A DNA stretch of 64,000 nt. Origin: Deefgea rivuli DSM 18356. Lineage in GTDB: Bacteria; Pseudomonadota; Gammaproteobacteria; Burkholderiales; Chitinibacteraceae. A model generated the notes under the pieces. It had not been told where the DNA came from and did no database searches. It saw nothing but the letters and a program-made list of their open reading frames with translations. The position numbers and the translations under genes were made by a program. Positions 186 through 54,603 of the stretch are shown here, in pieces. How positions within the stretch are numbered: the first letter of the stretch is position 1; each line of letters opens with the position of its first letter. Location of the stretch: positions 124,001-188,000 of the forward strand of contig NZ_JHVM01000008.1 in assembly GCF_000620145.1 (NCBI RefSeq). The letters run 5' to 3'.

Positions 186-631
186 AATTTGATCCTGTGT
201 TGGATTGATTTGGCGCTACTTAAATCGTAAGTCAGCTTCAATGCATGTTGTGCAATTTACGCTGATTGCCCCTGCTCGCGCTACAACGCGTCCAAGGTAG
301 CGCGATTAAATGTGAGGAATGAAACACTGCCGCAGCATTTTTTAATCAACATGATGCAGCGGCGCAAAGCAAGCAAAGCGAGATGCCAACAGCTAGACGA
401 ATCGCGTTGCCAGGCCAAATTTTGTAGCAAAAACTTGGCTTGCGTGCTGATATAAAGCCACCATCGGCCGCTACGAGCGATGGTGCAGTGTTAAGATGGC
501 GAATTCACTACGCCGCGCCAATCCACACGATTTAAAGCGCGGCCACCAATACCGCAGCAAGCAATGGGTATATCTACGCAGCCATTACTTAGAAAAGCCT
601 AGATCGATATACCCACAATAAGGAACTCAAT
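186..631. other. Intergenic region between divergent genes
   Basis: No convincing gene is visible in this 446-bp gap. It holds a perfect 9-bp stem (276-284 with 297-305, 12-base loop) without a T-run, so it is not a clear terminator. It also holds one copy of the 49-bp GGGTAT/ATACCC repeat (566-614) just before the photolyase ribosome site (AAGGA near 619-624). Promoters for both divergent genes must lie here, but none stands out. Confidence 0.5.
566..614. repeat. 49-bp GGGTAT-N37-ATACCC element, copy A
   Basis: GGGTAT at 566-571 and ATACCC at 609-614 are exact inverted ends, exactly 49 bp outer length. The interior carries the family core (AGCCATTACTTA then AAAAGCCTAGAT). It is intergenic, ending five bases before the photolyase ribosome binding site, so it lies in the 5' leader or promoter of that gene. 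Confidence 0.8.
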
Positions 632-2089
632 ATGACCACCACCGCCCTCGTTTGGCTGCGCCGCGATTTGCGCCTGTTTGACCACCACGCTATGTATGAA
701 GCCTTAAAAAATGCCGATCAAGTGGTGTTGGCGTTTGTGTTTGATACGACGATTTTAAAAGATTTACCCAAGCAAGACCGCCGCGTTGAGTTTATTTGGG
801 AAGCACTGAAAGAAATCAAAACCGAATTGCGTCAATACAATACCGATTTGGTCGTGCGCCACGGTGATCCACTTACTGAAATCCCCGCGCTGGTTGAGCA
901 ATTTGGTATTACTGCGGTGTACTGCAATCGAGATTACGAGCCACAAGCGATTGCTCGTGATAAGTATGTCGCTGCAAGCCTTAAAGAAAAAGGCGTGTAC
1001 TTCAATACCTACAAAGATCAAGTCATCTTTGAACAAGATGAAGTACTGACGCAAACCGGCGGCATGTATAGCGTGTTTTCGCCGTATAAACGCACTTGGC
1101 TGGCCAAACTTCGCGACAAAGATTTGGCGGCCTACCCGATCCATCATGTCATCAAAAACCTCAAACCACTGAAATCGCAATATTTTCCCAGCCTCAAAGA
1201 ACTGGGTTTTGCCAAAACCAATCTGACGCAACTCAAAGCGCCATTGGGCATGAGTGGCGGCGAGAAACTGTTTGAAGACTTCAAACGCCGCATCAGCGAT
1301 TACAAAGACGCGCGCGACTATCCGGCGATCAAAGGTGTTTCTTATCTATCGGCGCATATTCGCTTCGGTACGGTGTCGATCCGTGAATTGGCGCGTTTCG
1401 CGCACGAGCACGGCGGCATTGGTGCAGAAACGTGGTTGTCGGAACTGATTTGGCGCGAATTTTATGCACAAATTCTGTGGCATAGACCCGATGTGGTCGA
1501 GCATGCGTTCAAGCCTGAATTTGACACATTGCCGTTCCCAAATCACCCCGAGCTATTTGCCGCGTGGTGCGCGGGCGAAACCGGCTATCCAATTGTCGAC
1601 GCAGCAATGCGCCAATTGACGCAAACCGGGTTTATGCACAACCGTTTGCGGATGATTACGGCGAGTTTCTTGGTTAAAGATTTGCTAGTTGATTGGCGCT
1701 GGGGCGAGAAATTTTTCGCCGAACACCTGCTCGATTACGACTTAGCCAGCAATAACGGCGGCTGGCAATGGGCGGCCTCGACGGGCTGCGACGCGCAACC
1801 GTATAACCGGATTTTTAATCCGGTATTGCAATCAGAAAAATTCGACGCACAAGGCAAATTTATCCGCCGCTACGTACCAGAACTCGCCGAATTGCCGGAT
1901 GTGGCGATTCACGCGCCGTGGGAATTCTCGGCCAACGATAGACGCGGCTCGCTGTTTGTTAGCTTTTTAGAGCAAACCGACTACTTCCCACCGATCGTGA
2001 ACCACGCCGAACAACGCGCCGCAACGTTGGCGATGTATAAAATGCACAAAGGCTACGGGCCAAGTGGTGATGATGAGCATGACGAATAA
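632..2089 (+). CDS. phrB: Deoxyribodipyrimidine photo-lyase (class I CPD photolyase)
   Basis: Uses blue light to split cyclobutane pyrimidine dimers in DNA, with FADH- as catalytic cofactor and an antenna chromophore in the N-terminal domain. The 485 residues match the usual class I length of about 470-490. The N-terminal Rossmann-like antenna domain begins VWLRRDLRLFDHHA. The C-terminal FAD domain has the family signature SNNGGWQWAASTGCDAQPY followed by RIFNP. ATG at 632 has an AAGGA box eight to twelve bases upstream. It stands alone and converges on a YjdF-type gene across a bidirectional terminator. A cryptochrome of the same fold is the main alternative, but the signature fits photolyase. 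Confidence 0.95.
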   Translation: MTTTALVWLRRDLRLFDHHAMYEALKNADQVVLAFVFDTTILKDLPKQDRRVEFIWEALKEIKTELRQYNTDLVVRHGDPLTEIPALVEQFGITAVYCNRDYEPQAIARDKYVAASLKEKGVYFNTYKDQVIFEQDEVLTQTGGMYSVFSPYKRTWLAKLRDKDLAAYPIHHVIKNLKPLKSQYFPSLKELGFAKTNLTQLKAPLGMSGGEKLFEDFKRRISDYKDARDYPAIKGVSYLSAHIRFGTVSIRELARFAHEHGGIGAETWLSELIWREFYAQILWHRPDVVEHAFKPEFDTLPFPNHPELFAAWCAGETGYPIVDAAMRQLTQTGFMHNRLRMITASFLVKDLLVDWRWGEKFFAEHLLDYDLASNNGGWQWAASTGCDAQPYNRIFNPVLQSEKFDAQGKFIRRYVPELAELPDVAIHAPWEFSANDRRGSLFVSFLEQTDYFPPIVNHAEQRAATLAMYKMHKGYGPSGDDEHDE

Positions 2090-2117
2090 GCGTCATTTCA
2101 CTCAGTAATGCCCATGG

Positions 2118-2149
2118 AAAAGCCCAATCCTTTAAAAGATTGGGCTTTT
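2118..2149. terminator. Bidirectional intrinsic terminator
   Basis: AAAAGCCCAATC (2118-2129) pairs perfectly with GATTGGGCTTTT (2138-2149) around an 8-base loop. T-runs lie on both strands because A and T tracts flank the stem. It sits between the converging phrB and yjdF-type genes and can serve both. Confidence 0.9.
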
Positions 2150-2173
2150 TTATTGAATTTTTTCAACTTTAAA

Positions 2174-2803: not shown

Positions 2804-2909
2804 TTTATTTCCCCTTTATATTGATGTAATCGATGTATTGTCTCGACCTTCTCACACAAACGCATTGAGCGTCTATTCTAAAAGCACCTTTCTCCAACTC
2901 AGGTGCGCC

Positions 2910-4187
2910 ATGAATCCCAATGAAACTCTCCTTGCCCGCCAACAAGCAGCTACGCCGCGTGGCGTTGGCGTGATGGCGCCGTTTTTTGTCGATCATGCAA
3001 AAAATGCCGAGCTGTGGGATGTGACGGGGCGACGGTTTATTGATTTTGCTGGCGGCATTGCGGTTCTGAATACCGGTCATCGCCATCCCGACGTCATCGC
3101 GGCGGTGAGCGCGCAGCTCGAGCTGTTCACGCACAGCTGCTATCAAGTCGTGCCGTATGAATCGTATATTCGCCTCGCCGAACGACTCAATGCACTCACG
3201 CCCGGTGCGCACGCGAAGAAAACGGCGTTTTTTTCCACTGGCGCTGAGGCGGTTGAGAATGCGATCAAAATCGCGCGCGCTGCCACGGGGCGCAGCGGCG
3301 TGATTGCATTTAGCGGCGGATTTCATGGCCGCACGATGATGGGCATGGCGCTGACCGGCAAAATCGTGCCATATAAAGTTGGCTTTGGCCCCTTCCCCGC
3401 CGATGTGTTTCATGTACCGTTTCCCAATGCGCTGCATCATGTGTCGGTGGCCGATTCCTTAGCCGCCATCACCGCGCTATTCAAAGCCAGCATTGATCCC
3501 AAACGCGTTGCCGCGATTATTCTGGAACCAATTCAAGGCGAAGGCGGATTTTATATTGCGCCACCTGAGTTGATGCGCGCGCTGCGCCAGCTGTGCGACG
3601 AACACGGTATTTTACTGATTGCCGATGAAATCCAAACTGGCTTCGCGCGCACTGGGCGCTGGTTTGCAATGGATCATTACGATGTACTGCCCGACTTGAT
3701 AACGCTGGCCAAATCGCTGGCTGGCGGTTTTCCACTATCGGCCGTCGTGGGTCGCAGTGAAATCATGGACGCACCCGCGCCGGGTGGGCTGGGCGGCACT
3801 TACGCCGGTAGCCCGATTGCGATTGCTGCCGCGCATGCGGTACTGGATGTGATTGAGCACGAGCAATTGAATCACCGAGCTAACACCCTAGGTATACGCC
3901 TGCAAGCTTTATTAAATAATCTACAGAAGGTAATACCCAATATAGCTGAAGTTCGTGGCCTAGGCGCGATGATTGCCGTTGAATTTATGCAAAACGCCAC
4001 GCCCGATATCGACTTCACCAAGCGCGTGCAAGCGGAGGCTTTACGGCGCGGGCTGATTTTGCTCAGCTGCGGCGTGTACGCTAATGTGCTGCGTTTCTTG
4101 TTTCCACTGACCATTAGCGACGCGGTGTTTGATGAAGGCTTAGCGATTTTGGAAGCGGCGCTGTTTGCAGCTCATCTGGATTCGTAG
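2910..4187 (+). CDS. gabT: 4-aminobutyrate aminotransferase (class III PLP aminotransferase)
   Basis: Transfers the amino group of 4-aminobutyrate (or the related 5-aminovalerate) to 2-oxoglutarate, yielding succinate semialdehyde and glutamate. From ATG 2910 the protein is 425 residues, the E. coli GabT length. The upstream in-frame extension to 2838 is rejected because an AGG box precedes 2910 and the family N-terminus aligns there. Visible PLP features are GAEAVENAIKIAR, SGGFHGRT, the DEIQTGFARTG segment and the Schiff-base lysine in TLAKSLAGGFPLSAV. A gabD-like dehydrogenase lies 6 kb downstream beyond a sugar operon. Residues around 328-343 are encoded by a copy of the 49-bp repeat, without a length change relative to E. 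coli GabT as I recall it. Confidence 0.9.
   Translation: MNPNETLLARQQAATPRGVGVMAPFFVDHAKNAELWDVTGRRFIDFAGGIAVLNTGHRHPDVIAAVSAQLELFTHSCYQVVPYESYIRLAERLNALTPGAHAKKTAFFSTGAEAVENAIKIARAATGRSGVIAFSGGFHGRTMMGMALTGKIVPYKVGFGPFPADVFHVPFPNALHHVSVADSLAAITALFKASIDPKRVAAIILEPIQGEGGFYIAPPELMRALRQLCDEHGILLIADEIQTGFARTGRWFAMDHYDVLPDLITLAKSLAGGFPLSAVVGRSEIMDAPAPGGLGGTYAGSPIAIAAAHAVLDVIEHEQLNHRANTLGIRLQALLNNLQKVIPNIAEVRGLGAMIAVEFMQNATPDIDFTKRVQAEALRRGLILLSCGVYANVLRFLFPLTISDAVFDEGLAILEAALFAAHLDS
3890..3938. repeat. 49-bp element, copy E, inside gabT
   Basis: AGGTAT at 3890 and ATACCC ending at 3938 have the family spacing. The core AAGCTTTATTAAATA is identical to that of intergenic copy B at 13235; I count 35 of 49 positions identical between E and B. 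The local codons are AT-rich compared with the rest of gabT, yet the reading frame is intact. Confidence 0.7.
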
Positions 4188-5712: not shown

Positions 5713-5786
5713 GTCACTCCACTGCCGGATCAATGCATGAGCCGCGATCCGGCCTTCATTCTATCTGCATCAGCAAGGAGCGCTTT

Positions 5787-6746
5787 ATGCCCAGCTGGAA
5801 AGAACACCTACCCTCGCTCGGCACGCTTGGGCCATTTATTGCGCTATTTTTAGCGTGCAGCTTTTTCTCATTTCAAAGTGAGCATTTCCTAAGCGGTGCT
5901 AATTTTTCACTGATTTTGCAGCAAGTCATGGTCGTTGGCCTGATCGCGATTGGTCAAACGCTGATTATCCTCACTGCGGGTATCGATCTATCTTGCGGCA
6001 TGGTGATGGCGCTGGGCGGCGTGGTGATGACTAAAGTCGCCCACGACTACGGCCTGCCGCCGATTGTGGCGATCGGTATTGGCCTCGCCGTGACGTCATT
6101 ATTTGGCCTCATCAACGGCTTATTGGTGACTCGCATCAAGTTGCCACCGTTTATTGTGACCTTGGGCACGATGAATATCGCTTTTGCGCTCACCCAGCTG
6201 TATTCGCAATCGCAAACCATTACCGATCTACCACCAGCAATGACTTTTTTGGGCACGACATTTAGCCTCGGGCAAACCCAAGTGGCTTATGGCACGGTGC
6301 TGATGCTGGCGATGTATGGCCTGTCTTGGCTCTGGTTGCGCGAAACGGCAAATGGTCGGCATATTTACGCCGTCGGCAATAGCCCAGAAGCCACTCGCCT
6401 GACGGGGATTCCCACGCATCGCGTTTTACTGATGGCCTATGTCTTGGCTGGATTGTGCTACGGCATTGCATCGCTGCTATCGGTTGCCCGTACTGGCGTA
6501 GGCGATCCCAACGCCGGTCAAACCGAAAATCTGGATGCGATTACCGCTGTCGTTTTGGGTGGCACCAGCCTGTTTGGTGGACGCGGTATTATTATTGGCT
6601 CTTTAGTCGGCGCGATGATTGTTGGGGTATTTCGCAATGGCCTAACGCTTATGGGCGTTTCATCGGTATACCAAATACTTATTACTGGCATTCTCGTTAT
6701 TCTGGCTGTGGCCACCGATCAGCTTTCACGTAAAGGAGGCCGCTAA
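5787..6746 (+). CDS. frcC: Sugar ABC transporter permease (FrcC/RbsC type)
   Basis: Forms the inner-membrane channel for the sugar delivered by the binding protein. The 319 residues have about eight to ten hydrophobic spans. Family signatures are visible: QTLIILTAGIDLSCGMVMALGG in the first half and the cytoplasmic loop AVGNSPEATRLTGIP. ATG 5787 has AAGGAG six bases upstream; the longer frame from 5733 lacks such a site. The stop overlaps the ATPase start (TAATG at 6744-6748), so the two are translationally coupled. A 49-bp repeat copy lies near its 3' end (6625-6673). Confidence 0.85.
   Translation: MPSWKEHLPSLGTLGPFIALFLACSFFSFQSEHFLSGANFSLILQQVMVVGLIAIGQTLIILTAGIDLSCGMVMALGGVVMTKVAHDYGLPPIVAIGIGLAVTSLFGLINGLLVTRIKLPPFIVTLGTMNIAFALTQLYSQSQTITDLPPAMTFLGTTFSLGQTQVAYGTVLMLAMYGLSWLWLRETANGRHIYAVGNSPEATRLTGIPTHRVLLMAYVLAGLCYGIASLLSVARTGVGDPNAGQTENLDAITAVVLGGTSLFGGRGIIIGSLVGAMIVGVFRNGLTLMGVSSVYQILITGILVILAVATDQLSRKGGR
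6625..6673. repeat. 49-bp element, copy K, inside frcC
   Basis: GGGTAT (6625-6630) and ATACCA (6668-6673) stand at the exact 49-bp family spacing. The interior lacks the AT-rich core of intergenic copies, so only the half-sites and spacing match. Taken alone this copy could be chance; it is listed because four other genic copies share the geometry. Confidence 0.45.
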
Positions 6747-11938: not shown

Positions 11939-11987
11939 AGGTATATGGTTGTAGGTATTATTTAATAATAACTACAACCATATACCG
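11939..11987. repeat. 49-bp element, copy G, near-perfect palindrome between convergent genes
   Basis: The arms GGTATATGGTTGTA (11940-11953) and TACAACCATATACC (11973-11986) are perfectly complementary. The inner parts also pair with a single mismatch around a central TA. From A11939 to G11987 the length is the family 49 bp. It lies between gabD and fba, which converge, so it may act as a hairpin terminator or barrier, though it lacks a clear T-run. Confidence 0.75.
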
Positions 11988-11993: not shown

Positions 11994-13031
11994 TTAATTA
12001 CACTTTTCCATCATCTTCACCAAATTTACCGGCTTAATCTTCTCCCCCTGCCCCGCAGCACCAAAATCAATATAACGGGCGCGGCAGACGGCGGCCATTG
12101 CGGCGATTGCGGGTTTTAGATATTGCCGTGGATCGAAATCAGCGGGGTTTTCGATCAAATGCTGGCGAATTGCGCCGGTCATTGCGAGGCGCAAATCGGT
12201 GTCGATATTAATTTTCCGTACGCCCCAACGAATTGCGCGCTGAATTTCTTCGACCGGCACACCCCAAGTCGGTTTTAAATCGCCGCCAAAATCACGCACT
12301 TGTTGCAGCAAATCTTGCGGCACGCTGGAAGAGCCGTGCATCACCAAATGCGTATTAGGCACCGCATCGTGGATTTCTTTGATGCGATCAATATCGAGCA
12401 CTGCACCGGTGGGTGGCGATGAGAATTTATACGCGCCGTGACTGGTGCCAATCGCAATCGCCAGCGCATCCACACCCGTCGCCGCGACAAAGGCTTTGGC
12501 TTGCCATGGGTCGGTGAGCATTTCGGCATGCGTGAGCATGCGGCTCGCGCCGACACCGTCTTCCTCTTCACCCATGCCAGTATCAAGCCGCCCGAGGCAA
12601 CCAAGTTCACCTTCAACCGACACACCAAAGCTATGCGCCATTTTGACCACTTCGCGCGTCACTTCGACGTTGTAGTCGTAGCTCGACGGCGTTTTGCCAT
12701 CCATCATCAGTGAGCCGTCCATCATCACACTGGAAAAACCGTGCGTAATTGCACTCAAACATATAGCTGGACTAGTGCCGTGATCTTGGTGCATCACAAT
12801 CGGCAAATGCGGATAACTCGCGACTGCGCCTTGAATCATTTGCCGCAAAAAGAGTTCCCCAGCGTATTTTCGCGCTCCGGCGCTAGCTTGCAAGATAACG
12901 GGGCTTTTGGTGGCATCGGCCGCTTGCAAAATCGCTTGGACTTGCTCCAAATTATTCACATTAAAGGCAGGCACACCGTAACCGTGTTCGGCGGCGTGAT
13001 CGAGGATTTGATTCAGCGAAACGAGTGGCAT
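11994..13031 (-). CDS. fba: Class II fructose-bisphosphate aldolase (Calvin-cycle subtype)
   Basis: Reversibly splits fructose 1,6-bisphosphate into dihydroxyacetone phosphate and glyceraldehyde 3-phosphate; zinc dependent. From ATG 13031 it is 345 residues, starting [20 protein letters not shown], the usual N-terminus of the CbbA/Fba type. Zinc and active-site motifs are VMHQDHG and [17 protein letters not shown] precedes 13031, and the longer frame to 13127 is rejected. Placed near a fructose-type operon, it probably links imported fructose to glycolysis. It converges with gabD across the palindrome at 11939. Confidence 0.93.
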
Positions 13032-13780
13032 GGCTTTTCCTTGTTGCGTTGCACCAGCGAACTGTAGGTGGGAAAACTCAAGCTGCCAAATCGGGAAATT
13101 CAGCATTCGGGAAAGCACTAAAACCACTTGGGCCCAATTGAAAAGCGCCTACGCCAAAGCCACAGCAGCACGCAATGCCGCAGCGCAGCAAAGCCATCGT
13201 GAGTAGCTAGGTCAAGATTAATCAGTATGCTCATGGGTATATAAACAAAAGCTTTATTAAATAAAGCACAGATAGCAATACCCATAATAAAAAAACATCG
13301 AGCCATTGCACATCAAAGTGCCAAACCAAGCAGGCTGAGCAGCTCGTCATTCTAGCGCACCGACATTCGCGTGGCGCCAGGCTAAATCCAATCCTAAACT
13401 CGATGCAGACCAAAACATCGTTTTACGCCACATCAGTCATGTTAAAAAAATAAGCAAATGAACAACGCCGACAACGAAACCTCGCATTTTGGGTAAAAAT
13501 AAATTTATCCTGATCGCCATGGTTTCATGCGTACTTAGATTGAGGAGGTTTTACTTGTATTGCGACGATACGCTTTAAAGCCGATCTAGGAATTGGTAGC
13601 ATTTAGGACTAACTGACTCGCCGCCAATTAGTCTTAAGCGACTAAAAACAAAGCAGGATAAAATCAGGCCAATACAGGATTTATCGCCGTTCATTTCCAG
13701 TATCATCATGTCACGCTGCACAAACGCTAAATTAGCCAAAGCCGACAGCGGCAAAAATCATTATTGAAGGTCGACCATCC
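13032..13780. other. Large intergenic region between fba and the MFS gene
   Basis: About 750 bp between divergent genes, with no credible long gene. It carries copy B of the 49-bp repeat. A strong GAGGAGG Shine-Dalgarno-like string at about 13541-13548 precedes only a tiny 7-codon frame starting TTG, so I do not call a gene. The promoter of fba must lie in the left part and that of the MFS gene in the right. Confidence 0.5.
13235..13283. repeat. 49-bp GGGTAT-N37-ATACCC element, copy B
   Basis: GGGTAT (13235-13240) and ATACCC (13278-13283), 49 bp. The core GCTTTATTAAATAAAGC is itself a palindrome, giving nested inverted repeats. The ends extend as ATGGGTAT and ATACCCAT. It is intergenic. Confidence 0.82.
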
Positions 13781-18380: not shown

Positions 18381-18453
18381 CTACCCAAAACAACTACTTA
18401 GCATTGCCCAGACTGTGGTATGCTGCGCACCTTTCTTGTAATTGAACTACGCC

Positions 18454-18849
18454 ATGACCCGTGAAATCCTCAACCGCACCGAACTCCATGATCCTGATAC
18501 ATGGGTGAAATTCACCAAAGGCAAATGCGACGATTGCTATTCAGGCTGCTGTACGATGCCGGTCGAAGTAAAAATCGGCGATTTAATCCGCATGGGCGTA
18601 GTGGATGAATTCGACAAAGATGAACCGGCGAAAAACATCGCCAAGCGTTTAATGAAAGCGAAGATTATTGAGCATTTCAATTTCAAACATGAAATTTACA
18701 CGCTCTACCGCCGTGGTACTCGCGACTGTACTTTTCTGGATGAGAAAACCCGTCTGTGCACAATTTACGATAAGCGCCCAAATACCTGCCGTAATCACCC
18801 AGCAGTAGGGCCAAAGCCAGGTTTCTGCGCTTATATTCGCTTCTTTTGA
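18454..18849 (+). CDS. YkgJ family cysteine-cluster protein
   Basis: A 131-residue protein with the CxxCxxxCC cluster (CDDCYSGCC, residues 26-34) and later cysteines in RDCTFLD, RLCTIYD, NTCRNHP and GFCAY. This matches the YkgJ/UPF0153 family, thought to bind zinc or iron; its physiological role is unknown. ATG 18454 is preferred over the TTG at 18442, though neither has a strong Shine-Dalgarno. A copy of the 49-bp repeat follows 7 bp after the stop. Confidence 0.82.
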   Translation: MTREILNRTELHDPDTWVKFTKGKCDDCYSGCCTMPVEVKIGDLIRMGVVDEFDKDEPAKNIAKRLMKAKIIEHFNFKHEIYTLYRRGTRDCTFLDEKTRLCTIYDKRPNTCRNHPAVGPKPGFCAYIRFF

Positions 18850-37687: not shown

Positions 37688-37783
37688 TTGAAATTTCGGC
37701 CTTATTGACAACGTTTGATAAGAAAGTTCGGGGCGTTTACTGCTAGAATCCTCCAATTCTATCAAAGTAATGACAAAAGCCAC

Positions 37784-39955
37784 ATGCGGGTGCGCAATTC
37801 TCCTCCCTACCAAATTAATATCGTGGCCCTGTCCTTGGCCGTGCTGCCGATGTTCGCGTACGCAACCAGTTCAGAGCAGCCTGTCGAGCCGCCCATTTTC
37901 ATCGAGGCCGATCAAGCCAGCGTGCAAGAAGGACAATATTCTGAAGCGCGCGGCAATGTGATTGTGAATCGCGATGGCGTCGTCGTGAATGCCGACTGGG
38001 TCAAATACGAGCTGGAAGCCGATCGTGTTCATGCCGGTGACGCCGTCAAAATGGTACAAAAAGGCGATACGCTCGAAGGCACGACGCTGAATATGACCAT
38101 CAACACGCGCGTTGGCGAGATGGACAACCCGATTTATCACATGGCAGAAGGCTTGGTGCGCGGGGATGGCGTCAAAGTGCTATTTGCTGGGCAAGATAAA
38201 TACCGGATTCAGCGCGGCCGAATGACCACTTGCCGTGATGGACAAGATGACTGGTATTTACATGCCGAAGAAATTGATCTGGATTACACCACCAACTACG
38301 GCCAAGCATGGCATGGTTGGGCCGAATTTAAAGGCGTACCGTTTTTCTACTACCCTTGGGTTGATTTTCCGCTCGATGGCGGCAGAAAATCAGGCTTTTT
38401 AATGCCCACTTTTGGCTATAGCAACACCAATGGCTTGCAATACAGCCAACCTTATTACTGGAATATTGCCCCGAATTACGATGCCACAATCACGCCAGGC
38501 TATTACGGTAAACGTGGTGTGATGCTGGGTGGCGAGTTTCGTTACCTGCAGCCGGAATACGCTGGGATTATTCGTGCGGCGGGGATTAAAGACAATGAAA
38601 CCGATACCGACCGCTATGGTGTTTACTTTCAGCACAATCAAACGCTCACGGATCGCTTATCTCTCAATCTGAGTTATCAGAAAGTCTCTGACTCTGATTA
38701 TTTTATTGATTTTTCTGACTCCCTGGCTGGCGCATCACAAGTCAATTTACCGCAAGAAGCGCTGCTTAATTATAACGGCGACTTCTGGTCGACTTATTTG
38801 CGCGTGCAGCGCTACCAAACACTGCAAACGCCAAGCAATCCGGTCGACATTCCCTACTGGCGGATGCCGCAGTGGTATTTCACCGCTGCGCCACAAGTGG
38901 GCTATGGCTTAGAAACCCGTATTAGCGGCGAAATAACTCGCTTTGTGAATGACACCAAGGTGCATGGCGACCGCGCTTGGATTAATCCAAGTGTGAGTTT
39001 ACCGCTCGCCAATAGCTACGCTTTTATTACGCCACGTTTGAGCGTGCAGGCCAATACTTACCGCTCTGAATCGGCTTCTGGGCAAAATCTGGGGAGCGAG
39101 TCATTGGTCGTGCCGATAGCAAGCATCGATTCAGGACTGTTTTTTGAACGCGAAGGCGAATTATTTGGCTCTGGGATTGTACAAACACTAGAGCCGCGAG
39201 CTTACTACCTCTACGCACCCTACAAATCACAGGCCAATATTCCCAATTACGATTCGGCACTCGCCACCTTGTCTTGGTCGCAACTCTTTGCCGAGAATAA
39301 ATTTACGGGCCGCGACCGCGTTAATGATGCGAACAATCTAACTTTAGCTGTGAGTTCGCGGATTTTTGACGATGCTAGCGGGATTGAACGTTTCTCACTG
39401 GGTGTCGGTCAGCAGTTTTATTTAAGCTCACCCAAAGTCACTTTATCGGGCCAAGACAATGCCTCTGAAGAAAAAGATTCCAATTTATTTCTAACCGTAG
39501 GCAGCCAGCTACCGTATAACGTTAACGTTAATTATTTGCTGCAACAAGACTTAAACAGTCAACGGACAATGAATGCCGAATTGGATTTGAACTGGACACC
39601 GAGTGAGTTTAAAACGCTGAACCTGCGCTATGCACGCAATCAAGATCTCGAACAAGTTTCAATGTCCGGACAATGGCCGATTAGCAATGGTTGGTATGCT
39701 GTTGGTCGCCAAAACTATTCACTTAAAGACAGTAAATCACTAGAGACGATTGCTGGGCTTGAATATAATGCCGGCTGTTGGGCGCTGCGCTTTGCCGCAC
39801 AGCGCTATGTCACGACCAATGACAAGTACAAAACAAACTATTTTGCAGTCTTAGAATTAGGCGGTTTGGCAGGAATTGGGATGAACCCGATCAGCTTATT
39901 GAAGCAATCCATCCCAGGTTATGCTGACACTTACCGCACCCCAAAACTTCGTTAA
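37784..39955 (+). CDS. lptD: LPS-assembly protein LptD
   Basis: Inserts lipopolysaccharide into the outer leaflet together with LptE. The 723 residues have a signal peptide (about 1-28, ending YA), an N-terminal OstA/beta-jellyroll domain (about 36-145, FIEADQASVQEGQYSEARGN) and a large C-terminal barrel. Only two obvious cysteines remain in the mature protein, one in MTTCRDGQDDW and one in AGCWALRF, whereas E. coli has four. A single inter-domain disulfide would be possible. ATG 37784 puts a typical signal peptide first. surA, an LptD-folding chaperone, follows 12 bp downstream. Confidence 0.93.
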   Translation: MRVRNSPPYQINIVALSLAVLPMFAYATSSEQPVEPPIFIEADQASVQEGQYSEARGNVIVNRDGVVVNADWVKYELEADRVHAGDAVKMVQKGDTLEGTTLNMTINTRVGEMDNPIYHMAEGLVRGDGVKVLFAGQDKYRIQRGRMTTCRDGQDDWYLHAEEIDLDYTTNYGQAWHGWAEFKGVPFFYYPWVDFPLDGGRKSGFLMPTFGYSNTNGLQYSQPYYWNIAPNYDATITPGYYGKRGVMLGGEFRYLQPEYAGIIRAAGIKDNETDTDRYGVYFQHNQTLTDRLSLNLSYQKVSDSDYFIDFSDSLAGASQVNLPQEALLNYNGDFWSTYLRVQRYQTLQTPSNPVDIPYWRMPQWYFTAAPQVGYGLETRISGEITRFVNDTKVHGDRAWINPSVSLPLANSYAFITPRLSVQANTYRSESASGQNLGSESLVVPIASIDSGLFFEREGELFGSGIVQTLEPRAYYLYAPYKSQANIPNYDSALATLSWSQLFAENKFTGRDRVNDANNLTLAVSSRIFDDASGIERFSLGVGQQFYLSSPKVTLSGQDNASEEKDSNLFLTVGSQLPYNVNVNYLLQQDLNSQRTMNAELDLNWTPSEFKTLNLRYARNQDLEQVSMSGQWPISNGWYAVGRQNYSLKDSKSLETIAGLEYNAGCWALRFAAQRYVTTNDKYKTNYFAVLELGGLAGIGMNPISLLKQSIPGYADTYRTPKLR

Positions 39956-39967: not shown

Positions 39968-41257
39968 ATGAAGACTCAGACCTTGCTACGTACAGCAACG
40001 CTTACTTTAACGCTGTTCAGCAGCTCCTTGATGGCTGAAATCATTACCGCAGATCGCGTTATTGCGATTGTGAATCGTAATGCCATCACTCAAGTCGAGC
40101 TGAACCAGAAAATAAATACCGTTCGCGCAAATCTGACAAAACAAAATGTCAAAGCGCCGCCCGAGCAAGTTTTGCAAGAGCAGGTTTTAGAGCGCTTGAT
40201 TCTGGATCAACTGCAACTGCAGTATGCCCAGCAATCAGGTATTCGCATTGACGACAATCAGCTAGAAGCGGCAATCAACCGAATTGCAGCGCAAAATGAA
40301 ATGTCTTTACCGCAGTTTCGCAAAAAACTCGAAGAAACCGGCATTACGTGGCGTGCATTTCGCGATCAAATTCGCCAAGAAATGACCTTGTCGCGCCTAA
40401 AAGATCGGGAGATCGACAATAAAGTCGTTGTCACTGAATCTGAAATTGATGACTACCTCAAACTTGCCGCCAATAAAGCGCAAATGGAATACGATCTGGC
40501 GCAAATTTTTGTGCCACTACCGGAAAATGCGAGTCCAGATCAAATTCAAGAGCGCCGCTTGCGGATTCAATCTGCACGCCAAGAACTCGAAACGGGCGCC
40601 TCATTTGCCAGTGTCGCGGCCAGCTATTCAGGTGACAAAAACGCCAACTCGGGTGGCGCTTTAGGCTGGCGTCCGGCTGGCTCACTGCCACCGGCATTTA
40701 CCGCCCTACTCGACAAATTGCAGCCCGGCGGGCTAACCGACATTGTGCGTAGCCCTGCTGGTTTCCACGTTTTCAAATTGATTGATAAACGCACCCAGCA
40801 AGAGCAAGTGGTGGTGCAGCAGACTCGCGCGCACCATATTTTAATTCGTAGCAACGAAATCACCTCGACTACCGATGCAAAACAAAAATTAGCGCAATTG
40901 CGCCTCCGAATTGTCAACGGTGAGAAATTTGAAGATCTAGCGAAAGCGTTTTCTGACGATGCCACCGCCCCCAAAGGTGGCGATTTAGGCTGGCTCAATC
41001 CAGGTGAAACCGTACCCGATTTTGAACGAGCGATGGATGCGCTAAAAATTGGTGAAGTGAGTGCGCCAGTGCAAAGCCCATTTGGTTTTCACATTATTCG
41101 CGTGGATGAGCGCCGCAAACAAGACGTCACGCTAGAGCGGGCTCGCTTCAAGTTACGTAGTGAATTAAAACAACGTAAAGCTGAAGAGCAATATGACGAC
41201 TGGCTACGCCAATTGCGTGACCGCGCTCATATCGAAATTCGTTTGAAGGACGAGTAA
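39968..41257 (+). CDS. surA: Periplasmic chaperone/peptidyl-prolyl isomerase SurA
   Basis: Escorts unfolded outer-membrane proteins, LptD among them, through the periplasm. The 429 residues have a signal peptide (1-23, ending LMA), a SurA N-terminal chaperone domain (about 25-160) and two parvulin domains (about 170-275, GGALGWRPAG, and 285-385, KGGDLGWLNPGE). Its stop overlaps the pdxA start (TAATG), indicating coupled translation. The lptD-surA-pdxA-rsmA order is the classic proteobacterial one. Confidence 0.95.
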   Translation: MKTQTLLRTATLTLTLFSSSLMAEIITADRVIAIVNRNAITQVELNQKINTVRANLTKQNVKAPPEQVLQEQVLERLILDQLQLQYAQQSGIRIDDNQLEAAINRIAAQNEMSLPQFRKKLEETGITWRAFRDQIRQEMTLSRLKDREIDNKVVVTESEIDDYLKLAANKAQMEYDLAQIFVPLPENASPDQIQERRLRIQSARQELETGASFASVAASYSGDKNANSGGALGWRPAGSLPPAFTALLDKLQPGGLTDIVRSPAGFHVFKLIDKRTQQEQVVVQQTRAHHILIRSNEITSTTDAKQKLAQLRLRIVNGEKFEDLAKAFSDDATAPKGGDLGWLNPGETVPDFERAMDALKIGEVSAPVQSPFGFHIIRVDERRKQDVTLERARFKLRSELKQRKAEEQYDDWLRQLRDRAHIEIRLKDE

Positions 41258-42267
41258 TGCAATCTGTATTGGCGATCACCACCGGAGAACCTGCAGGTAT
41301 TGGCCCAGAGCTTTGTATCAAATTAGCTCACAGCAATATACCCAATCCATTAGTCTTATTGGCTGATCGCCAATTATTAATCGAGCGTGCGGCATGCGTT
41401 GGCATTGATTACGCCGAAGTTGCCGCTTGGCCCGATTATCACACAGGCAGTAATGCGCCCATTTCGATCTTGCACATTCCATTAGCTGCGCCCTGTATTG
41501 CTGGGCAACTCAATCCAGCTAACTCAGCGTATGTACTGGCTTTGCTTGATCGCGCGATTGATGGCTGTGTCGCTAAGGAATTTGCTGCCATTGTCACTGC
41601 ACCGCTGCATAAAGGTGTCATTAATGATGCCAAGCTGGGCGGGTATTTCTCTGGGCATACCGAATACCTTGCTGAGCGAACCAATACCCAGCAGGTCGTC
41701 ATGATGCTGGCGGGCGAGTATACCAACGAGAAAAAAATGATGCGCGTCGCGCTGGCGACAACCCATCTGCCACTCAAAGACGTTTCCAGCGCACTTACAG
41801 CAGAGTCACTCGAAAACACACTGCGCATTTTGCAGCAAGATTTACAGCAGCAATTTGGCTTGCCGCAACCGCGAATCTTGGTCGCAGGTCTGAATCCGCA
41901 TGCAGGTGAAAGCGGTCATATGGGGCGCGAAGAAATTGACGTCATCATTCCAGTGCTCAACAAACTGCGCGCAGAAGGCATGACGCTAATTGGCCCCCTA
42001 CCCGCTGATACCTTATTTAATCCACCGATTCTGGCGCAAGGCGATGCGGTTTTGGCGATGTATCACGACCAAGGCTTGCCAGTTTTGAAGTTTGCGACAT
42101 TTGGCGCGGGCATTAACATCACACTCGGCCTGCCGATTATCCGCACTTCGGTCGATCATGGCACCGCACTCGATTTAGCCGGCACAGGCCGCGCTGAAGT
42201 CGGTAGCTTAATTTCTGCAACGCAACTCGCTGCAACACTCTGTGCATCACACTCATTAACGTCCTAG
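41257..42267 (+). CDS. pdxA: 4-hydroxythreonine-4-phosphate dehydrogenase
   Basis: NAD-dependent oxidation of 4-phosphohydroxy-L-threonine in pyridoxal phosphate synthesis. The 336 residues match the family. Motifs include TTGEPAGIGPELC at the start, GHTEYLAERT, GLNPHAGESGHMG and MYHDQGLPVLKF, containing metal-binding histidines. The gene carries two copies of the 49-bp motif (41295 and 41641), both over strongly conserved protein segments. A terminator follows, separating it from rsmA. Confidence 0.94.
   Translation: MQSVLAITTGEPAGIGPELCIKLAHSNIPNPLVLLADRQLLIERAACVGIDYAEVAAWPDYHTGSNAPISILHIPLAAPCIAGQLNPANSAYVLALLDRAIDGCVAKEFAAIVTAPLHKGVINDAKLGGYFSGHTEYLAERTNTQQVVMMLAGEYTNEKKMMRVALATTHLPLKDVSSALTAESLENTLRILQQDLQQQFGLPQPRILVAGLNPHAGESGHMGREEIDVIIPVLNKLRAEGMTLIGPLPADTLFNPPILAQGDAVLAMYHDQGLPVLKFATFGAGINITLGLPIIRTSVDHGTALDLAGTGRAEVGSLISATQLAATLCASHSLTS
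41295..41343. repeat. 49-bp element, copy H, inside pdxA
   Basis: AGGTAT (41295-41300) and ATACCC (41338-41343), 49 bp. Interior shares AGCTTT and TTAGCTCACAG-like parts with intergenic copies. It encodes GIGPELCIKLAHSNIPN, part of a universally conserved PdxA region, so it cannot be a recent insertion. Confidence 0.6.
41641..41689. repeat. 49-bp element, copy J, inside pdxA
   Basis: GGGTAT (41641-41646) and ATACCC (41684-41689), exact consensus half-sites at the family distance. It encodes GYFSGHTEYLAERTNTQ, including the conserved GHTE motif. The interior has no AT-rich core. Confidence 0.55.
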
Positions 42268-43345: not shown

Positions 43346-44104
43346 ATGAATGCCAACGTGACCATGATTCGCTTTAATAATGTCAATAAATGGTATGGCC
43401 GTGACCACCATGTATTAAAAAACCTCAACCTTGAGGTGAAGCAAGGCGAAGTTGTGGTCGTTTGCGGCCCCTCCGGCTCGGGAAAGTCGACGCTGATTCG
43501 CACCATTAATCAGCTTGAGCCGATTAATGACGGTGAAATCTGGGTAGATGGGATTCAAGCTAATAGTACGAAAACCAATATCAATAAATTGCGTGAAGAT
43601 GTGGGCTTTGTATTCCAGCATTTCAACCTCTACCCCCACCTCTCCGTGCTAGAAAACATCACGCTAGCGCCGATTACCGTAAAAAAAACCGCCCCCGCCG
43701 AAGCGAATCAACGAGCCTTAGAGCTGCTAGAACGCGTGGGTTTATTGAATAAAAAAGATACTTACCCAAGTAATCTTTCAGGTGGACAACAACAGCGCGT
43801 CGCGATTGCACGCGGTCTGGCGATGAATCCACGCGTGATGTTGTTTGATGAGCCAACCAGCGCGCTTGATCCTGAAATGATCGGTGAAGTGCTCAGCGTG
43901 ATGAAGCAGCTCGCGGAATCGGGCATGACCATGATGGTCGTGACGCATGAAATGGGCTTTGCCCGTGAAGTGGCTGATCGCGTGATTTTTCTCGATCATG
44001 GTGAGATTGTCGAAGACACGATGCCAGAAAGCTTTTTCACTAATCCGCAAACCGATCGCGCCAAGCAGTTTTTACGCCAAATTCTGGCACCAATGCATCA
44101 ATAA
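43346..44104 (+). CDS. Amino-acid ABC transporter ATP-binding protein (GlnQ type)
   Basis: Powers uptake of a polar amino acid. The 252 residues have all NBD motifs: Walker [15 protein letters not shown]-loop [17 protein letters not shown], signature [14 protein letters not shown], Walker [15 protein letters not shown] and switch VVTHEMGFA. No permease or binding protein adjoins it, so it is a solitary subunit. The orphan binding protein at 19512 is one possible partner. A strong terminator follows. Confidence 0.9.
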
Positions 44105-44171: not shown

Positions 44172-44220
44172 AGGTATTTTCTCATAACCATTGATTATTA
44201 ATGCCTACACAGACATACCC
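44172..44220. repeat. 49-bp element, copy F
   Basis: AGGTAT (44172-44177) and ATACCC (44215-44220), 49 bp. The core AACCATTGATTATTAATGCC fits the family. It is intergenic and its last base is the last base of the GGDEF-EAL stop codon. Confidence 0.75.
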
Positions 44221-46832
44221 TACATCTTTGCCAGTAAACCCAAGCGCATCCACAACTCGGCGACCCCCGCCGGAACCGGTTCACTAAAATAAAATCCCTG
44301 CATATAATTCACGCCCAAACCTTGCAAGAAGCGCGCCGTTTCTAGGTTTTCTACACCTTCAATCACCAGATCTAATTGCAGGCCTTGCGCCATTTGCGCA
44401 ATAGCCTGCATCACACGGCGGCCCTCTTCGGTATGCAAACGCTGCGCGAATGACACGTCCACTTTGAGCATTTGTGCAGGCATTTCATGCAATTGCGAGA
44501 GTGACGAATAACCCGTACCAAAGTCATCAATCGCCAGCTCGAATCCTGCCAAACGCAACTGGCGTAAATGTCGCATTTGCCGCGAATAATCGGTCAGTGC
44601 GACGCTTTCGGTAATTTCTAAAATCACATCCGATGGCCGCAAACGGAACTGGCTTAAACGTTCGACCAATTGCGTTACAAAATTAGGCAAGAATAATTGG
44701 CTGCGCGAGATATTAATCATCATTTTCTGCGCCAAACCCACATCACGCCAATCACGCAGCTTCGCAAACGCAATCAGCATAATTTGCTCAGACAACTCTT
44801 GAATAAGGCCGACTTTTTCCGCCATTGGAATAAATAATTCAGGGCTAATCCAGCCACTTTTATCATCCAGCCAACGCGCCAACGCTTCGACCGCAATCAC
44901 TTCTCCGGTACGGGAATTGACAATCGGCTGGTAAAACACTTGCAAACCACCGTGCTTAATTGCGCTGGAAAGCCGCGACTGTATCGCCACATGCTCACGA
45001 CCCAAAGCTTTTAAATGCACAATATCGCTGTAGAAACAGGCGTTATTACGACCCGCGTGTTTGGCGTGGTACATCGTGTGATCGGCGGCCGACAATAGCT
45101 CTTCGCCGCTTTCTGCGTTATCCGGATAAATCGCAAAACCGACTGAAATCGTCGGCTGAGTCTCCATGCCATTAATACTAATCGTCTCCCGCGCTGCCGA
45201 GCGCAGTAACTCGGCAATTTGCTTGAGCTGATTGCTGTCTTTCAAATGGGGAATCAAAGCAATAAATTCATCGCCACCCCAACGCGCCAACACAGCATCT
45301 TCGGGCAAGACCGCTTTGAGACGTCGTGACAAACTGATTAATAATTCATCACCGGTTTTATGGCCAAACGCATCATTAATTTGTTTAAAGTGATCTAAAT
45401 CGATAAATCCCAAGCCCACTTTACAGTTTTCCACCCGCGCCTCATCAATCGCGCGGTGCAGCTCATCATCGAGTAATAATCGATTCGGCAGACTAGTCAG
45501 CCCGTCATACAGCGCCAACTGAGTAATATGCTGCTCATTTAAGTGCGCCACTGTCACATCACGCAACACGCCGCGCAAACCCGCCACTTTGCCATCAGGG
45601 CCTTGGTGCGCGATTAAGCGTGCCTCTACCCAAATAAACTCACCATCGTCGCGCATGAGTCTAAAACGCACGCTCGCGGGTTCTGCCGATTTCACCATTT
45701 GCGCCAGCACGCTCCCCACCAGACTCGTGTCTTCTGGGTAAACCCAAGACAATAAAGAGCGGCCGATATCTTGGCTTAGATGGCGTGGATCAATGCCGCG
45801 CAGACGAGGCCAAACGGCGGTGGTTTCGGTTAAATGCCCTGCAGGCGATAAATCGATAATCGCTTCTTCCAACAAATTGAGCGTATCGAGCATGGTTTTT
45901 TTACGTGCGGCATCTTGCATCAACACGGTGACGTCTTGCATTAGCACCACAGCATGCTGCTTGGTACCGGCACTTACTGGCTGCAAGCGCACTAAAAAGC
46001 AGATATTGCCCTGCGCCAGCGTACAGTGAAACTGCATACTGGCGTGACCTGCTAGTAATTTTGGCAGTCGATGCACCAATTCACTGGCCAGCTCGAACGG
46101 CAGCGCAACGGTCAATGGACGACCCAACAAAGTCTCAACAGGCGGCAAGCTCGGGTGCCCCGACCAGACTTGGCAAATCACGCCATTGGGTTCCAGCTCA
46201 AACACCATATCTTGCGTACCGCCCACCAAAGCGCGGAGGCGCTGCTGATTGGCGAGTGACTCAGCTTCCACTTTGGCTTTCAGCAAAGCTTGCGCCACAT
46301 GATTGGCCAGCATCGACAATAAACGCAGCTCGGTGCTCTCTCGTTGCTGACGCTCATCATCATTTAAAAAAATCAAAAACCCGAATAAATGCCCATTGTC
46401 TAAGAGCGGAATGCAGAGCAACTGGCGCACGCCGACTTGGGCCAATAGCATTTGCTCAGCCAAAGGAAGCTCCAGCAAAGACTTATTTAATATCATACCC
46501 ACAGTAAGGGTATCGGCCAGTAGCGGATACTGATCATAGGCTAGCGAGACAAACGGTTGGGGGGTATTTATCGCCAGATGGCATTCCTGATCACGCCACG
46601 CCGCAACCATGCGCGCGACTTTACCATCAGCCTCATTCAAGTACAGCCCCGTCATACTGCTGTGCGATGCCTCACCCAAAGTACGCAACATTTCAATCAA
46701 CGCGTCCGGATCATCCGCGTTAGCGAGCAAACTCACGACATTGTCAAAGGCATTAAAATAGGTGTGATAAACACCTAGCGCCTCGTGAGCGGCATAGTTC
46801 GCTGATATTGAAGAAAAATTCTCTGGCTGCAC
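44220..46832 (-). CDS. GAF-PAS-PAS-GGDEF-EAL cyclic di-GMP protein
   Basis: An 870-residue cytoplasmic signalling protein that may make and break cyclic di-GMP. In order: a GAF-like domain (about 20-195), two PAS-like domains (about 195-310 and 315-430), GGDEF (about 440-600) and EAL (about 610-865). The GGDEF motif is intact (ARWGGDEFIALIP), as is EAL (VEALARWLD), with the IDDFGTGYSS and VIEGVE motifs of active phosphodiesterases. Which activity dominates is not predictable. It starts at GTG 46832 with GGGGC upstream. No membrane span is seen. Confidence 0.9.
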   Translation of the reverse strand: MQPENFSSISANYAAHEALGVYHTYFNAFDNVVSLLANADDPDALIEMLRTLGEASHSSMTGLYLNEADGKVARMVAAWRDQECHLAINTPQPFVSLAYDQYPLLADTLTVGMILNKSLLELPLAEQMLLAQVGVRQLLCIPLLDNGHLFGFLIFLNDDERQQRESTELRLLSMLANHVAQALLKAKVEAESLANQQRLRALVGGTQDMVFELEPNGVICQVWSGHPSLPPVETLLGRPLTVALPFELASELVHRLPKLLAGHASMQFHCTLAQGNICFLVRLQPVSAGTKQHAVVLMQDVTVLMQDAARKKTMLDTLNLLEEAIIDLSPAGHLTETTAVWPRLRGIDPRHLSQDIGRSLLSWVYPEDTSLVGSVLAQMVKSAEPASVRFRLMRDDGEFIWVEARLIAHQGPDGKVAGLRGVLRDVTVAHLNEQHITQLALYDGLTSLPNRLLLDDELHRAIDEARVENCKVGLGFIDLDHFKQINDAFGHKTGDELLISLSRRLKAVLPEDAVLARWGGDEFIALIPHLKDSNQLKQIAELLRSAARETISINGMETQPTISVGFAIYPDNAESGEELLSAADHTMYHAKHAGRNNACFYSDIVHLKALGREHVAIQSRLSSAIKHGGLQVFYQPIVNSRTGEVIAVEALARWLDDKSGWISPELFIPMAEKVGLIQELSEQIMLIAFAKLRDWRDVGLAQKMMINISRSQLFLPNFVTQLVERLSQFRLRPSDVILEITESVALTDYSRQMRHLRQLRLAGFELAIDDFGTGYSSLSQLHEMPAQMLKVDVSFAQRLHTEEGRRVMQAIAQMAQGLQLDLVIEGVENLETARFLQGLGVNYMQGFYFSEPVPAGVAELWMRLGLLAKM

Positions 46833-46904: not shown

Positions 46905-46908
46905 GTAT

Positions 46909-50839: not shown

Positions 50840-50841
50840 TA

Positions 50842-52587: not shown

Positions 52588-52588
52588 G

Positions 52589-52733: not shown

Positions 52734-53660
52734 ATGAAAATTATTTTCGCAGGAACTCCCGATTTTGCGGCTCAAGCACTCAGTGCGCTGATCGCTGCGG
52801 GGCATGAAATCGTCATGGTGCTCACTCAGCCTGATCGCCCGAGTGGCCGTGGCATGAAGCTCACGCCTTCTGCCGTGAAAAATGTCGCTCTAGAGCAGCA
52901 AATCCCAGTGTACCAGCCTGAAAAATTACGCAGCGCAGAGCAACAAGCACCTTTAATGGGTATAGACGCCGATGTCATGGTGGTTGCTGCTTACGGCCTG
53001 ATACTACCGCAAATTATTTTAGATTTACCGCGCTTTGGTTGCCTGAATATTCATGCTTCATTGCTGCCGCGCTGGCGCGGTGCTGCACCGATTCAGCGCG
53101 CGATTTTGGCTGGTGATCAAGCCACCGGCATCACCATTATGCAAATGGATGTAGGGCTAGATACCGGTGATATGTTGTCGGTGCATGTGACGCCGATCAT
53201 GCCAGATGACAATGCCGCCACCTTGCACGACAAACTGGCAGCACAAGGTGCAGAGGCGATTGTCGATGCGCTGGCTAATTTAAGCAGCCTAGAACGCCGC
53301 GTGCAGCCCGCAGAAGGCGTCACTTACGCTGAGAAATTAAGCAAAGAAGAAGCATTGATTGATTGGACGCAGACAGCCACGCAGTTGGATTTAAAAATCC
53401 GTGCCTTTAACCCCTTCCCTAGCGCACAAACCTCACTCGATGGCGTTATATTGAAATTATGGCGCGCCACGCCCATCGACGGAACAGGCGTGATCGGTTC
53501 GATTATCGCCATCGATAAAGAAGCCATCACCATCGCCTGTGGCAGCGGCGCTTTGCGCGTCACTGAATTACAAAAATCCGGCGGCAAGCGTTTGAGTGCT
53601 AATGCGTTTTTAGCCGGCTCTCCACTTGAAGTTGGCACGCAATTTGCAGTTAACGTTTAA
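52734..53660 (+). CDS. fmt: Methionyl-tRNA formyltransferase
   Basis: Formylates initiator Met-tRNA using 10-formyltetrahydrofolate. The 308 residues have the catalytic-core signature [20 protein letters not shown] and the N-terminal [17 protein letters not shown]. The C-terminal OB-like domain (about 205-305) is present. It sits in the conserved def-fmt-htpX-rsmB order. Confidence 0.95.
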
Positions 53661-53695
53661 TTTCATCGCGCAGCCCCACGCAAGGAATCAGCCTC

Positions 53696-54547
53696 ATGGA
53701 TAACTGGTTTAAAACGACGCTACTGATGGCCGCCATTTTGGCGCTGTTTATGCTGATGGGTGGACTCATTGGTGGCCGTAGCGGCATGTTGATGGCACTG
53801 ATTTTGGGTGGCGGAATGAATATTTTCGCTTACTGGAACTCGGACAAGATGGTGCTCAAAATGTATAACGCGCATCAAGTCGATGCGCGTACTGCACCCG
53901 AACTCTATGGCATGGTCGAAGAACTTGCGCGCAACGCCGGCTTGCCGATGCCTAAAGTTTTCGTTATTGATGAAGACCAACCCAATGCCTTTGCGACGGG
54001 GCGCAATCCAGAAAATGCCGCCGTTGCGGCCACTACGGGCATTATGCGCGTGCTGTCGTATCGTGAATTACGCGGCGTAATGGCGCATGAATTAGCCCAT
54101 GTGCAACATAGGGACATTTTGATTTCAACGATTTCGGCAACGATGGCCGGTGCAATTTCGGCACTCGCCAACTTTGCGATGTTTTTCGGTGGCCGCGACA
54201 GCAACGGCAATAGCATCAATCCAATTGCCAGAATTGCTCTCGCGCTGCTCGCGCCACTTGCTGCTAGCGTGATCCAAATGGCGATTTCCCGCTCACGCGA
54301 ATTTGAAGCCGATGCGGGCGGCGCACGGATTTCGGGAGATCCAGCAGCACTGGCCGATGCCTTATTAAAAATTGAAGCCTTTGCGCGTGGCATTCCACTC
54401 CATACCGCTGAAGCGCATCCAGCAACGGCGCAAATGATGATTATCAACCCCTTGCGTGGCGGCGGCCTGCAAGATTTATTTCGCACTCATCCACGCACCG
54501 AAGAGCGCGTTACGCGGCTCAGAAACATGAGCCACGGCAGAATTTAA
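53696..54547 (+). CDS. htpX: Membrane zinc metalloprotease HtpX
   Basis: An inner-membrane protease that degrades misfolded membrane proteins. The 283 residues have N-terminal spans (about 5-25 and 30-45), the HExxH site in [12 protein letters not shown], a third ligand in [10 protein letters not shown] and two further spans (about 145-165, 175-195). The size matches the family. Confidence 0.94.
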
Positions 54548-54554
54548 CCATTAA

Positions 54555-54603
54555 GGGTATTTAGTTGCATGCCTTAGCCACTAAAGCCCACAGATCAATA
54601 CCC
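54555..54603. repeat. 49-bp GGGTAT-N37-ATACCC element, copy D
   Basis: GGGTAT (54555-54560) and ATACCC (54598-54603), 49 bp. The interior is less AT-rich than other intergenic copies but keeps ATGCC and TAAAGCC in register. It lies between htpX and rsmB, directly before a hairpin. Confidence 0.75.

Follow-up and report, generated by a model that had tools for sequence, protein, structure and literature searches.

What is a bacterium doing with hundreds of pairs of the same five-letter word, set in inverted orientation at a single distance along its chromosome? The question is raised by 64,000 nucleotides of Deefgea rivuli DSM 18356 (positions 124,001–188,000 of contig NZ_JHVM01000008.1; genome of 3.7 Mb), here called the window, in which a first-pass annotation had noticed a 49-bp pattern with inverted ends. 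The element in question is GGTAT-N37-ATACC, 49 bp overall and termed an exact site below, and its control is the same pattern read backwards. The whole genome contains 453 exact sites and 4 matches to the control. The explanation tentatively preferred here, on comparisons of sequence, is that these are two-fold symmetric sites for an architectural, DNA-bending protein that would organize the chromosome.

The spacing is what first sets the pattern apart. The window holds 11 exact copies at N37 and none at N30–36 or N38–45; across N20–59 at zero mismatches, the only additions are single matches at N23 and N53. With one mismatch allowed, there are 19 matches at N37 and 0–6 at each other spacing, and 21 places in the window reach a matrix score of at least 8. 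Over the genome, the 29 spacings N8–36 together give 106 matches (reversed control 31) and the 29 spacings N38–66 give 122 (reversed control 33). The first-pass annotation had staked its reading on such a genome-wide comparison, in which an N37 no commoner than its neighbors would have told against it; that outcome did not appear: N37 has 453 matches, and the other spacings average about 4 each. A spacing artefact as the cause of the N37 pattern is ruled out by these scans of the window and the genome. The further assertion that the length never varies by a single base went too far, as a minor 50-bp (N38) class is present: among 50 of the 122 N38–66 matches, those with plus-strand places listed, 17 are N38, where an even spread predicts 1.7. 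Sampled DNA of the own genus (624 kb) gave 80 copies at N37, 3 at N38, and 1 at N36, and sampled DNA of a second site-bearing genus (980 kb) gave 125, 8, and 0, with about 1 at each other spacing. Site length is nearly, though not absolutely, fixed. The N23 spacing occurs 4 times in the sampled own-genus DNA, at least once nested within an N37 site (the one at 11939).

Exact matching captures only part of the family. Refined matrices found 131 sites in 464 kb of Deefgea (g1; reversed 3), 54 of them with both ends exact, 125 sites in 400 kb of the second genus (g4; reversed 4), 49 of them with both ends exact, and 236 sites in the 800 kb sampled of one g4 genome, G005 (reversed 2). Extrapolation from these scans gives about 1,000 sites per genome; the matrices were trained on the same DNA that they scanned, and the reversed-sequence control yielded 2–4 matches.

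The sites are confined to a narrow group of bacteria. Among 43 genomes of the family, 15 carry 259–542 exact copies, namely 7 of Deefgea, 6 of g4, and 2 of a third genus (g5), which are all the genomes of these three genera; the remaining 28 have 0–8 copies, with reversed controls of 0–5. PdxA of the window has its nearest named relative in Deefgea chitinilytica (81%), in line with g1 being Deefgea, and g4 might be Chitinibacter. Among 300 genomes of the order, four from the three site-bearing genera have 259–453 and the other 296 have 0–8 (the highest with a control of 0). Among 397 genomes of the phylum, the 396 besides D. rivuli have at most 12 (the control of that one being 11), and one has 10 with a control of 2. 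Judged by these counts, the site system is restricted to three genera within what was searched. A six-protein tree (one region, 21 genomes, 8 genera) supports the split uniting g1, g4, and g5 at 1.000, and also at 1.000 the split that adds g9, a site-free genus represented by one genome; since the tree is midpoint-rooted with the root on the stem of the three genera, g9 is likely to be their sister only if the root lies elsewhere.

A scan for dispersed spaced dyads recovered GGTAT at N37 in the second genus, used as a positive control (50 against 0.51 expected), whereas own-genus rows were uninformative owing to runs of N. The same scan showed no prominent dispersed 5-mer dyad, and hence no other dialect, in G038 and G041 from outside the three genera (200 kb of each, spacings 20–69), and a second scan showed no prominent dispersed 4- or 5-mer dyad in 240 kb of the g9 genome G030 (spacings 8–69), where the strong counts resemble one repeat array. 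In that genome (L206–L217), several fixed spacings have dyad counts near 30, which points to a long array, possibly of clustered regularly interspaced short palindromic repeats (CRISPR). Two other genomes deserve a remark. G023, a Deefgea, has only 259 exact sites against 339–453 in the other six g1 genomes. In G425, an unrelated genome of the phylum, five matches share different arms, near GGTATCCACGACTT...AAGTCGTGGATACC, and form a separate near-palindrome family.

The anatomy of the site points to a protein. The columns of 55 exact g1 and 50 exact g4 sites carry two-fold symmetric information over the 49 positions and little in the flanks. The end blocks read (G/A)GGTAT; a T..A(G) block lies a helical turn away from the dyad, and a C.(A/T)T block sits closer to the center. 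Because the information peaks at about 21, 10.5, and 0–5 bp from the dyad, the three blocks lie on one side of the helix. Such dyad symmetry and helical phasing are what is expected of a nucleoid-protein site. The information amounts to 27–28 bits (an upper estimate), against 11.8 bits needed to find the sites. The ends are constant between genera and the interior preferences are not (T in g1 and A in g4 at position 13, and likewise T and A at position 19), as would be expected of a binder that co-evolves with its sites. Taken together, these features make it very probable that a protein reads the 49-bp site. From the helical phasing, with rather more reserve, this putative protein probably bends the DNA; the ten-base rhythm of TA steps in G005 is clear only at the ends (0.95) and weak elsewhere. 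The data favor the view of the first-pass annotation that this is a protein-binding element of fixed length, with dyad symmetry and helical phasing, that differs from repetitive extragenic palindromic (REP) sequences and miniature inverted-repeat transposable elements (MITEs). That interpretation was sound in part, and the chromosome-wide extent and the restriction to three genera lay beyond the reach of a single window.

The seven places that it named all exist. Those at 566, 11939, 13235, 18856, 44172, and 54555 match GGTAT-N37-ATACC exactly, and the degenerate copy near 31113 is the 49-mer at 31112–31160. Their description as intergenic holds for the six exact copies, but five exact copies inside open reading frames (ORFs) had been overlooked (3890, 6625, 37318, 41295, and 41641), and nearly half of the sites are genic in the matrix scans of g1, g4, and G005. 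The sites of the window are as follows, with matrix scores and with gene families assigned by Pfam.

566–614: exact site, intergenic, upstream of the DNA photolyase gene 632–2089 (score 47.1)
962–1010: site with one weak end, inside ORF 632–2089 (score 33.5)
3890–3938: exact site inside ORF 2838–4187, a class-III aminotransferase (score 36.1)
6625–6673: exact site inside ORF 5733–6746, a BPD_transp_2 permease (low interior score of 14.8)
11939–11987: exact site, intergenic, between aldehyde dehydrogenase and class-II aldolase genes (score 41.4); judged by eye, the best palindrome among the 11 exact copies
13235–13283: exact site, intergenic, on the opposite side of the aldolase gene 11994–13127 (score 39.6)
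18856–18904: exact site, intergenic, 6 bp past the stop of 18442–18849 (score 47.6)
27043–27091: probable site with weak ends, inside ORF 25490–27655 (score 22.6)
31112–31160: site with a changed left end (GGTAC) that overlaps the end of the Na/H exchanger gene 29928–31136 (score 30.6)
34637–34685: probable site inside ORF 33579–35366 (score 17.4)
37318–37366: exact site inside ORF 36695–37813, of the APH-type phosphotransferase family
41295–41343: exact site, the first in pdxA, near the start of this gene (41257–42267)
41641–41689: exact site, the second in pdxA, inside 41257–42267
44172–44220: exact site in the convergent gap after the ABC-ATPase gene 43346–44104
46508–46556: probable site inside ORF 44220–46832, a GGDEF/EAL protein (score 17.6)
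52958–53006: probable site inside ORF 52734–53660 (score 16.1)
54555–54603: exact site, intergenic, 7 bp past the stop of 53696–54547, an M48 peptidase (score 36.5)

Sites inside genes make it possible to ask how a site arises. In 12 of 13 g1 and g4 genomes, the second pdxA site is present as an exact copy, in the same codons and with no indel relative to six outgroup genomes; since there is no indel and 49 is not a multiple of three, the site was not inserted. On this alignment, the clean in-gene case arose by substitution, and the earlier idea of a family of copied elements is not supported, the interiors of the sites not being shared between copies. A REP-like or MITE-like mobile repeat, which many dispersed near-palindromes with fixed ends might suggest, accordingly has next to no probability. 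None of 161 intergenic sites has identical flanks of 5–10 bp, and 2-bp flanks are identical at 23 sites, against 15 after shuffling. The insertion of a unit with target duplication, the mark of a MITE, was therefore rejected, as there are neither 5–10 bp duplications nor an indel at the second pdxA site. REP elements are likewise dispersed palindromic sequences, but they are described, in the part of the source available, as 20–40 bp long, extragenic, and tagged by GTAG or CGTC at one end (PMC3733652); here the length is fixed, nearly half of the copies are genic, the ends are GGTAT and ATACC with no such tag, and no interior is copied.

Sites are also kept place by place. For the first pdxA site, exact copies occur in 10 of 13 g1 and g4 genomes and in one of two g5 genomes, with an indel near its right end in some rows. 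The site at 37318 has an exact counterpart at the corresponding place in 12 of 13 g1 and g4 genomes, a count taken from synteny, as the codon alignment of this gene is out of register for six own-genus genomes. Downstream of the ABC-ATPase gene, 10 of these 13 genomes have an exact site in the same gap as 44172, with interiors that differ widely across genera. By comparison, the pdxA region of the six outgroup genomes (in a 21-genome comparison) contains one match to the pattern, at a different place. At pdxA columns with an invariant amino acid, the commonest codon has a share of 0.94 across genomes at the site ends (5 columns), against 0.77 in the site interior (12 columns) and 0.63 elsewhere (156 columns), a comparison of few columns in one gene. 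On a larger scale, collinear blocks between the own genome and G005 allowed 28 of about 110 own-contig sites to be placed, and 21 of these 28 have a g4 site there. Within alignments the place is shared by 13 of 19 sites against 9 of 1793 random positions, and in the gaps between alignments by 8 of 9 sites against 96 of 365; two of the 28 sites overlap each other, and the random places come from 96–205 kb, the sites also from two smaller blocks. Shared descent alone raises the figure of 13 of 19. Still, unless selection kept them, all ten end bases would presumably seldom be retained between genomes this diverged. In the core gene pdxA, the constraint seems sufficient to fix the choice of particular codons.

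Placement relative to genes bears on several explanations. Genes were called by a simple script, so genic and intergenic counts are approximate: the 236 sites of G005 comprise 105 intergenic, 113 genic, and 18 partial ones, where random places fall at 13, 83, and 4 percent, respectively. The density of sites is highest in its convergent gaps (37 in 17 kb), lower in tandem gaps (68 in 74 kb), and lowest in divergent gaps (3 in 25 kb). Exact sites in 400-kb stretches agree (divergent gaps: 4 in 19 kb in the own genome and 1 in 16 kb in G005), and the six intergenic sites of the window lie two each in convergent, tandem, and divergent gaps. An operator bound at promoters would be enriched upstream of genes, and divergent gaps are instead the poorest. 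Along the chromosome, the G005 sites are more even than simulations that keep the genic and gap classes: the coefficient of variation of the spacing is 0.74 against 0.97 (0 of 2000 simulations as low), the variance-to-mean ratio in 20-kb bins 0.46 against 0.92 (12 of 2000), and the share of spacings under 1 kb 0.11 against 0.24 (0 of 2000). The median distance of genic sites from non-genic sites, 2976 bp, exceeds the 1924 bp found for random genic places. The size of the largest gap is not unusual (294 of 2000 simulations as low).

The same gaps speak to hairpins, whether as DNA cruciforms, RNA terminators, or RNA 3' ends, rather than protein sites. In the tandem gaps of G005, 33 of 68 sites start close to the upstream stop (at most 16 bp ahead of it or 10 bp past it), and intergenic sites show arm-to-arm matching beyond column composition (z of 4.3 in g1 and 2.6 in g4). 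Genic sites, nearly half of the total, show none (z of −1.0 and −0.4), which disfavors a functional hairpin because the matching should then appear in genes too. The ends moreover stay fixed as the arms degenerate, and an Rfam search of the window gave no match. Variation in site strength or template-switch mutation would be simpler causes of the intergenic matching, and the hairpin explanation is considered highly improbable. Transposon, REP, terminator, and promoter readings all fit poorly.

The longest site-free stretches of contig 1 of the own genome were also inspected. Among the matches to ten proteins tested are a tail tape-measure protein, a tail tube protein, two integrases, a secretin, and a phage replication protein; a polysaccharide synthesis protein and a RecQ helicase are encoded there as well, and two of the ten proteins matched nothing. 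One such stretch (L034–L035, at about 378–397 kb) carries tailed-phage genes, with integrase, tail tube, and tape measure, and another (L030–L031, at about 296–304 kb) a cluster of integrase, secretin, and phage replication gene A. The lack of sites is not limited to islands, because long site-free stretches of G005 also hold ordinary-looking genes.

The principal rival is a self-DNA signal for natural transformation, that is, a palindromic counterpart to the DNA uptake sequences (DUS) of Neisseriaceae and the uptake signal sequences (USS) of Pasteurellaceae, kept by biased uptake and recombination. The site-bearing bacteria are classed near Neisseria. Like DUS and USS, the sites number in the hundreds to thousands, occur both in and outside genes, are limited to a lineage, and form genus dialects through their interiors; their genome-wide over-representation, with 453 exact copies, is of the kind that defines DUS, and their information exceeds what is needed to find them. 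A ComEC-type competence protein is encoded in G005 (Pfam), with a counterpart in own-genome DNA. By contrast, DUS and USS are about 9–17 bp long with a short, non-palindromic core, whereas the present site has 49 bp, dyad symmetry, and a fixed interior of 37 bp. The uptake signals in PMC1939737, PMC3630211, and PMC12616744 are all shorter, and they are non-palindromic according to the available parts of PMC1939737 and PMC12616744. Nothing known of uptake demands two ends exactly 37 bp apart. No receptor turned up, and no search was aimed at one. In the portion of PMC3630211 at hand, five genomes of Laribacter, Lutiella, Pseudogulbenkiania, and Chromobacterium have no obvious DUS, and its main text does not contain the words Chitinibacter and Deefgea. 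The uptake explanation is judged rather unlikely, if more probable than any other rival; if true, it would represent a second, palindromic solution to bacterial self-recognition.

A further alternative is some other genome-wide signal read by a protein, which might mark hotspots of repair or recombination, control replication, or serve a very large regulon. A strong symmetric site, present in many hundreds of copies and kept place by place, would suit it. Only 3 of the 108 gap-assigned G005 sites are in divergent gaps, which argues against a promoter-binding regulator. Chi and the FtsK-orienting polar sequences (KOPS) are directional, whereas a palindrome has no direction. Such a signal is considered improbable. 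The matS sites bound by MatP are short, exist in tens of copies, and are confined to one chromosomal region. They resemble the present sites in being symmetric and spread along a chromosome, with protein binding known for matS and proposed here, but the present sites are many hundreds and occur over all stretches sampled. HIP1 of cyanobacteria is, like them, palindromic, over-represented genome-wide, and limited to a lineage, but it is an 8-bp word (GCGATCGC) tied to methyltransferases in the accessible part of the source (PMC4390886), as opposed to a bipartite site of 49 bp. No known system that explains the sites was found, and the literature searched, mostly non-subscription, showed nothing on such a motif.

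How might an architectural, DNA-bending protein use these sites? One protein assembly, a dimer or tetramer, would hold the two GGTAT ends about 42 bp (four helical turns) apart, make contacts on that side of the helix both a turn away from the dyad and close to the AT-rich center, and bend or partly wrap the DNA. Many hundreds of such complexes, one per 3–4 kb at fixed chromosomal places, could then act as architectural anchors or nucleoid domain boundaries in the three genera. Whether the role would be chromosome organization, rather than uptake or another genome-wide role, is on sequence evidence an evenly balanced judgement. If chromosome organization is correct, sequence-defined anchors whose places are conserved at kilobase intervals would assign domain boundaries to fixed positions, open to being shifted or deleted, and the link between nucleoid structure and selection would become testable.

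Several observations weigh against this preferred explanation. First, uptake sequences share several of these statistics, and evenness alone is indecisive, because earlier work, as cited in the part of PMC1939737 available, also reports significantly even spacing of uptake sequences. Second, contig 1 of the own genome shows no evenness (coefficient of variation of 0.98; 1059 of 2000 simulations as low), with its islands left in and one run of 150 N included. Third, the arm matching of intergenic sites could be caused by hairpins or template-switch mutation. Finally, the binder was not found by counts of HU/IHF, ParB_N, and H-NS over the family genomes or by eye among G005 proteins. HU/IHF counts are 4–5 in site-bearing genomes and 3–6 elsewhere. 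A fourth, extra HU-like protein is matched in all 15 site-bearing genomes (81–83% in g1, 90–100% in g4, and 52% in g5), but also in 7 of 9 genomes of the site-free g9 at 62–64%, with one partial match at 73%. On the supporting side, the AsnC/Lrp domain family, which includes DNA-wrapping global regulators, is missing from 15 of 15 genomes of the three site-bearing genera and present in 28 of 28 of the other eight genera; since the site-bearing genomes are closely related, this correlation counts as one event, not 15, though a notable one. A scenario with about 1,000 sequence-specified bends, each made by a new DNA-wrapping protein and delimiting loops or topological domains of about 3.5 kb, which arose once and replaced the Lrp family in a lineage without it, is doubtful.

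The candidates themselves can be described briefly. As the extra HU-like protein is present in g9 without sites, it is ruled out as a sufficient binder; one genome of another site-free genus, g6, has a partial match to it at 52%. It is encoded at L218:8335–8634, with relatives in g1, g4, g5, and most of g9, and has a slightly longer N-terminal part. The neighbors of its gene in four genomes include nothing telling, and in three g4 genomes it adjoins unrelated genes. ParB_N and H-NS counts show no pattern that tracks the sites among the family genomes. Of 649 predicted G005 proteins, 108 have a match in sampled g1 or g5 DNA and none in sampled outgroup DNA, a weak filter given how little outgroup DNA was compared; these 108, read by eye and the long ones in part, included no convincing DNA-binding candidate. 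A motif check of highly expressed genes gave one match. Lastly, three similar pilin-like genes stand side by side at L052:8082–9991, adjoining a 49-bp site, with relatives in own-genome DNA, and the first of them encodes an N-terminal methylation motif (Pfam).

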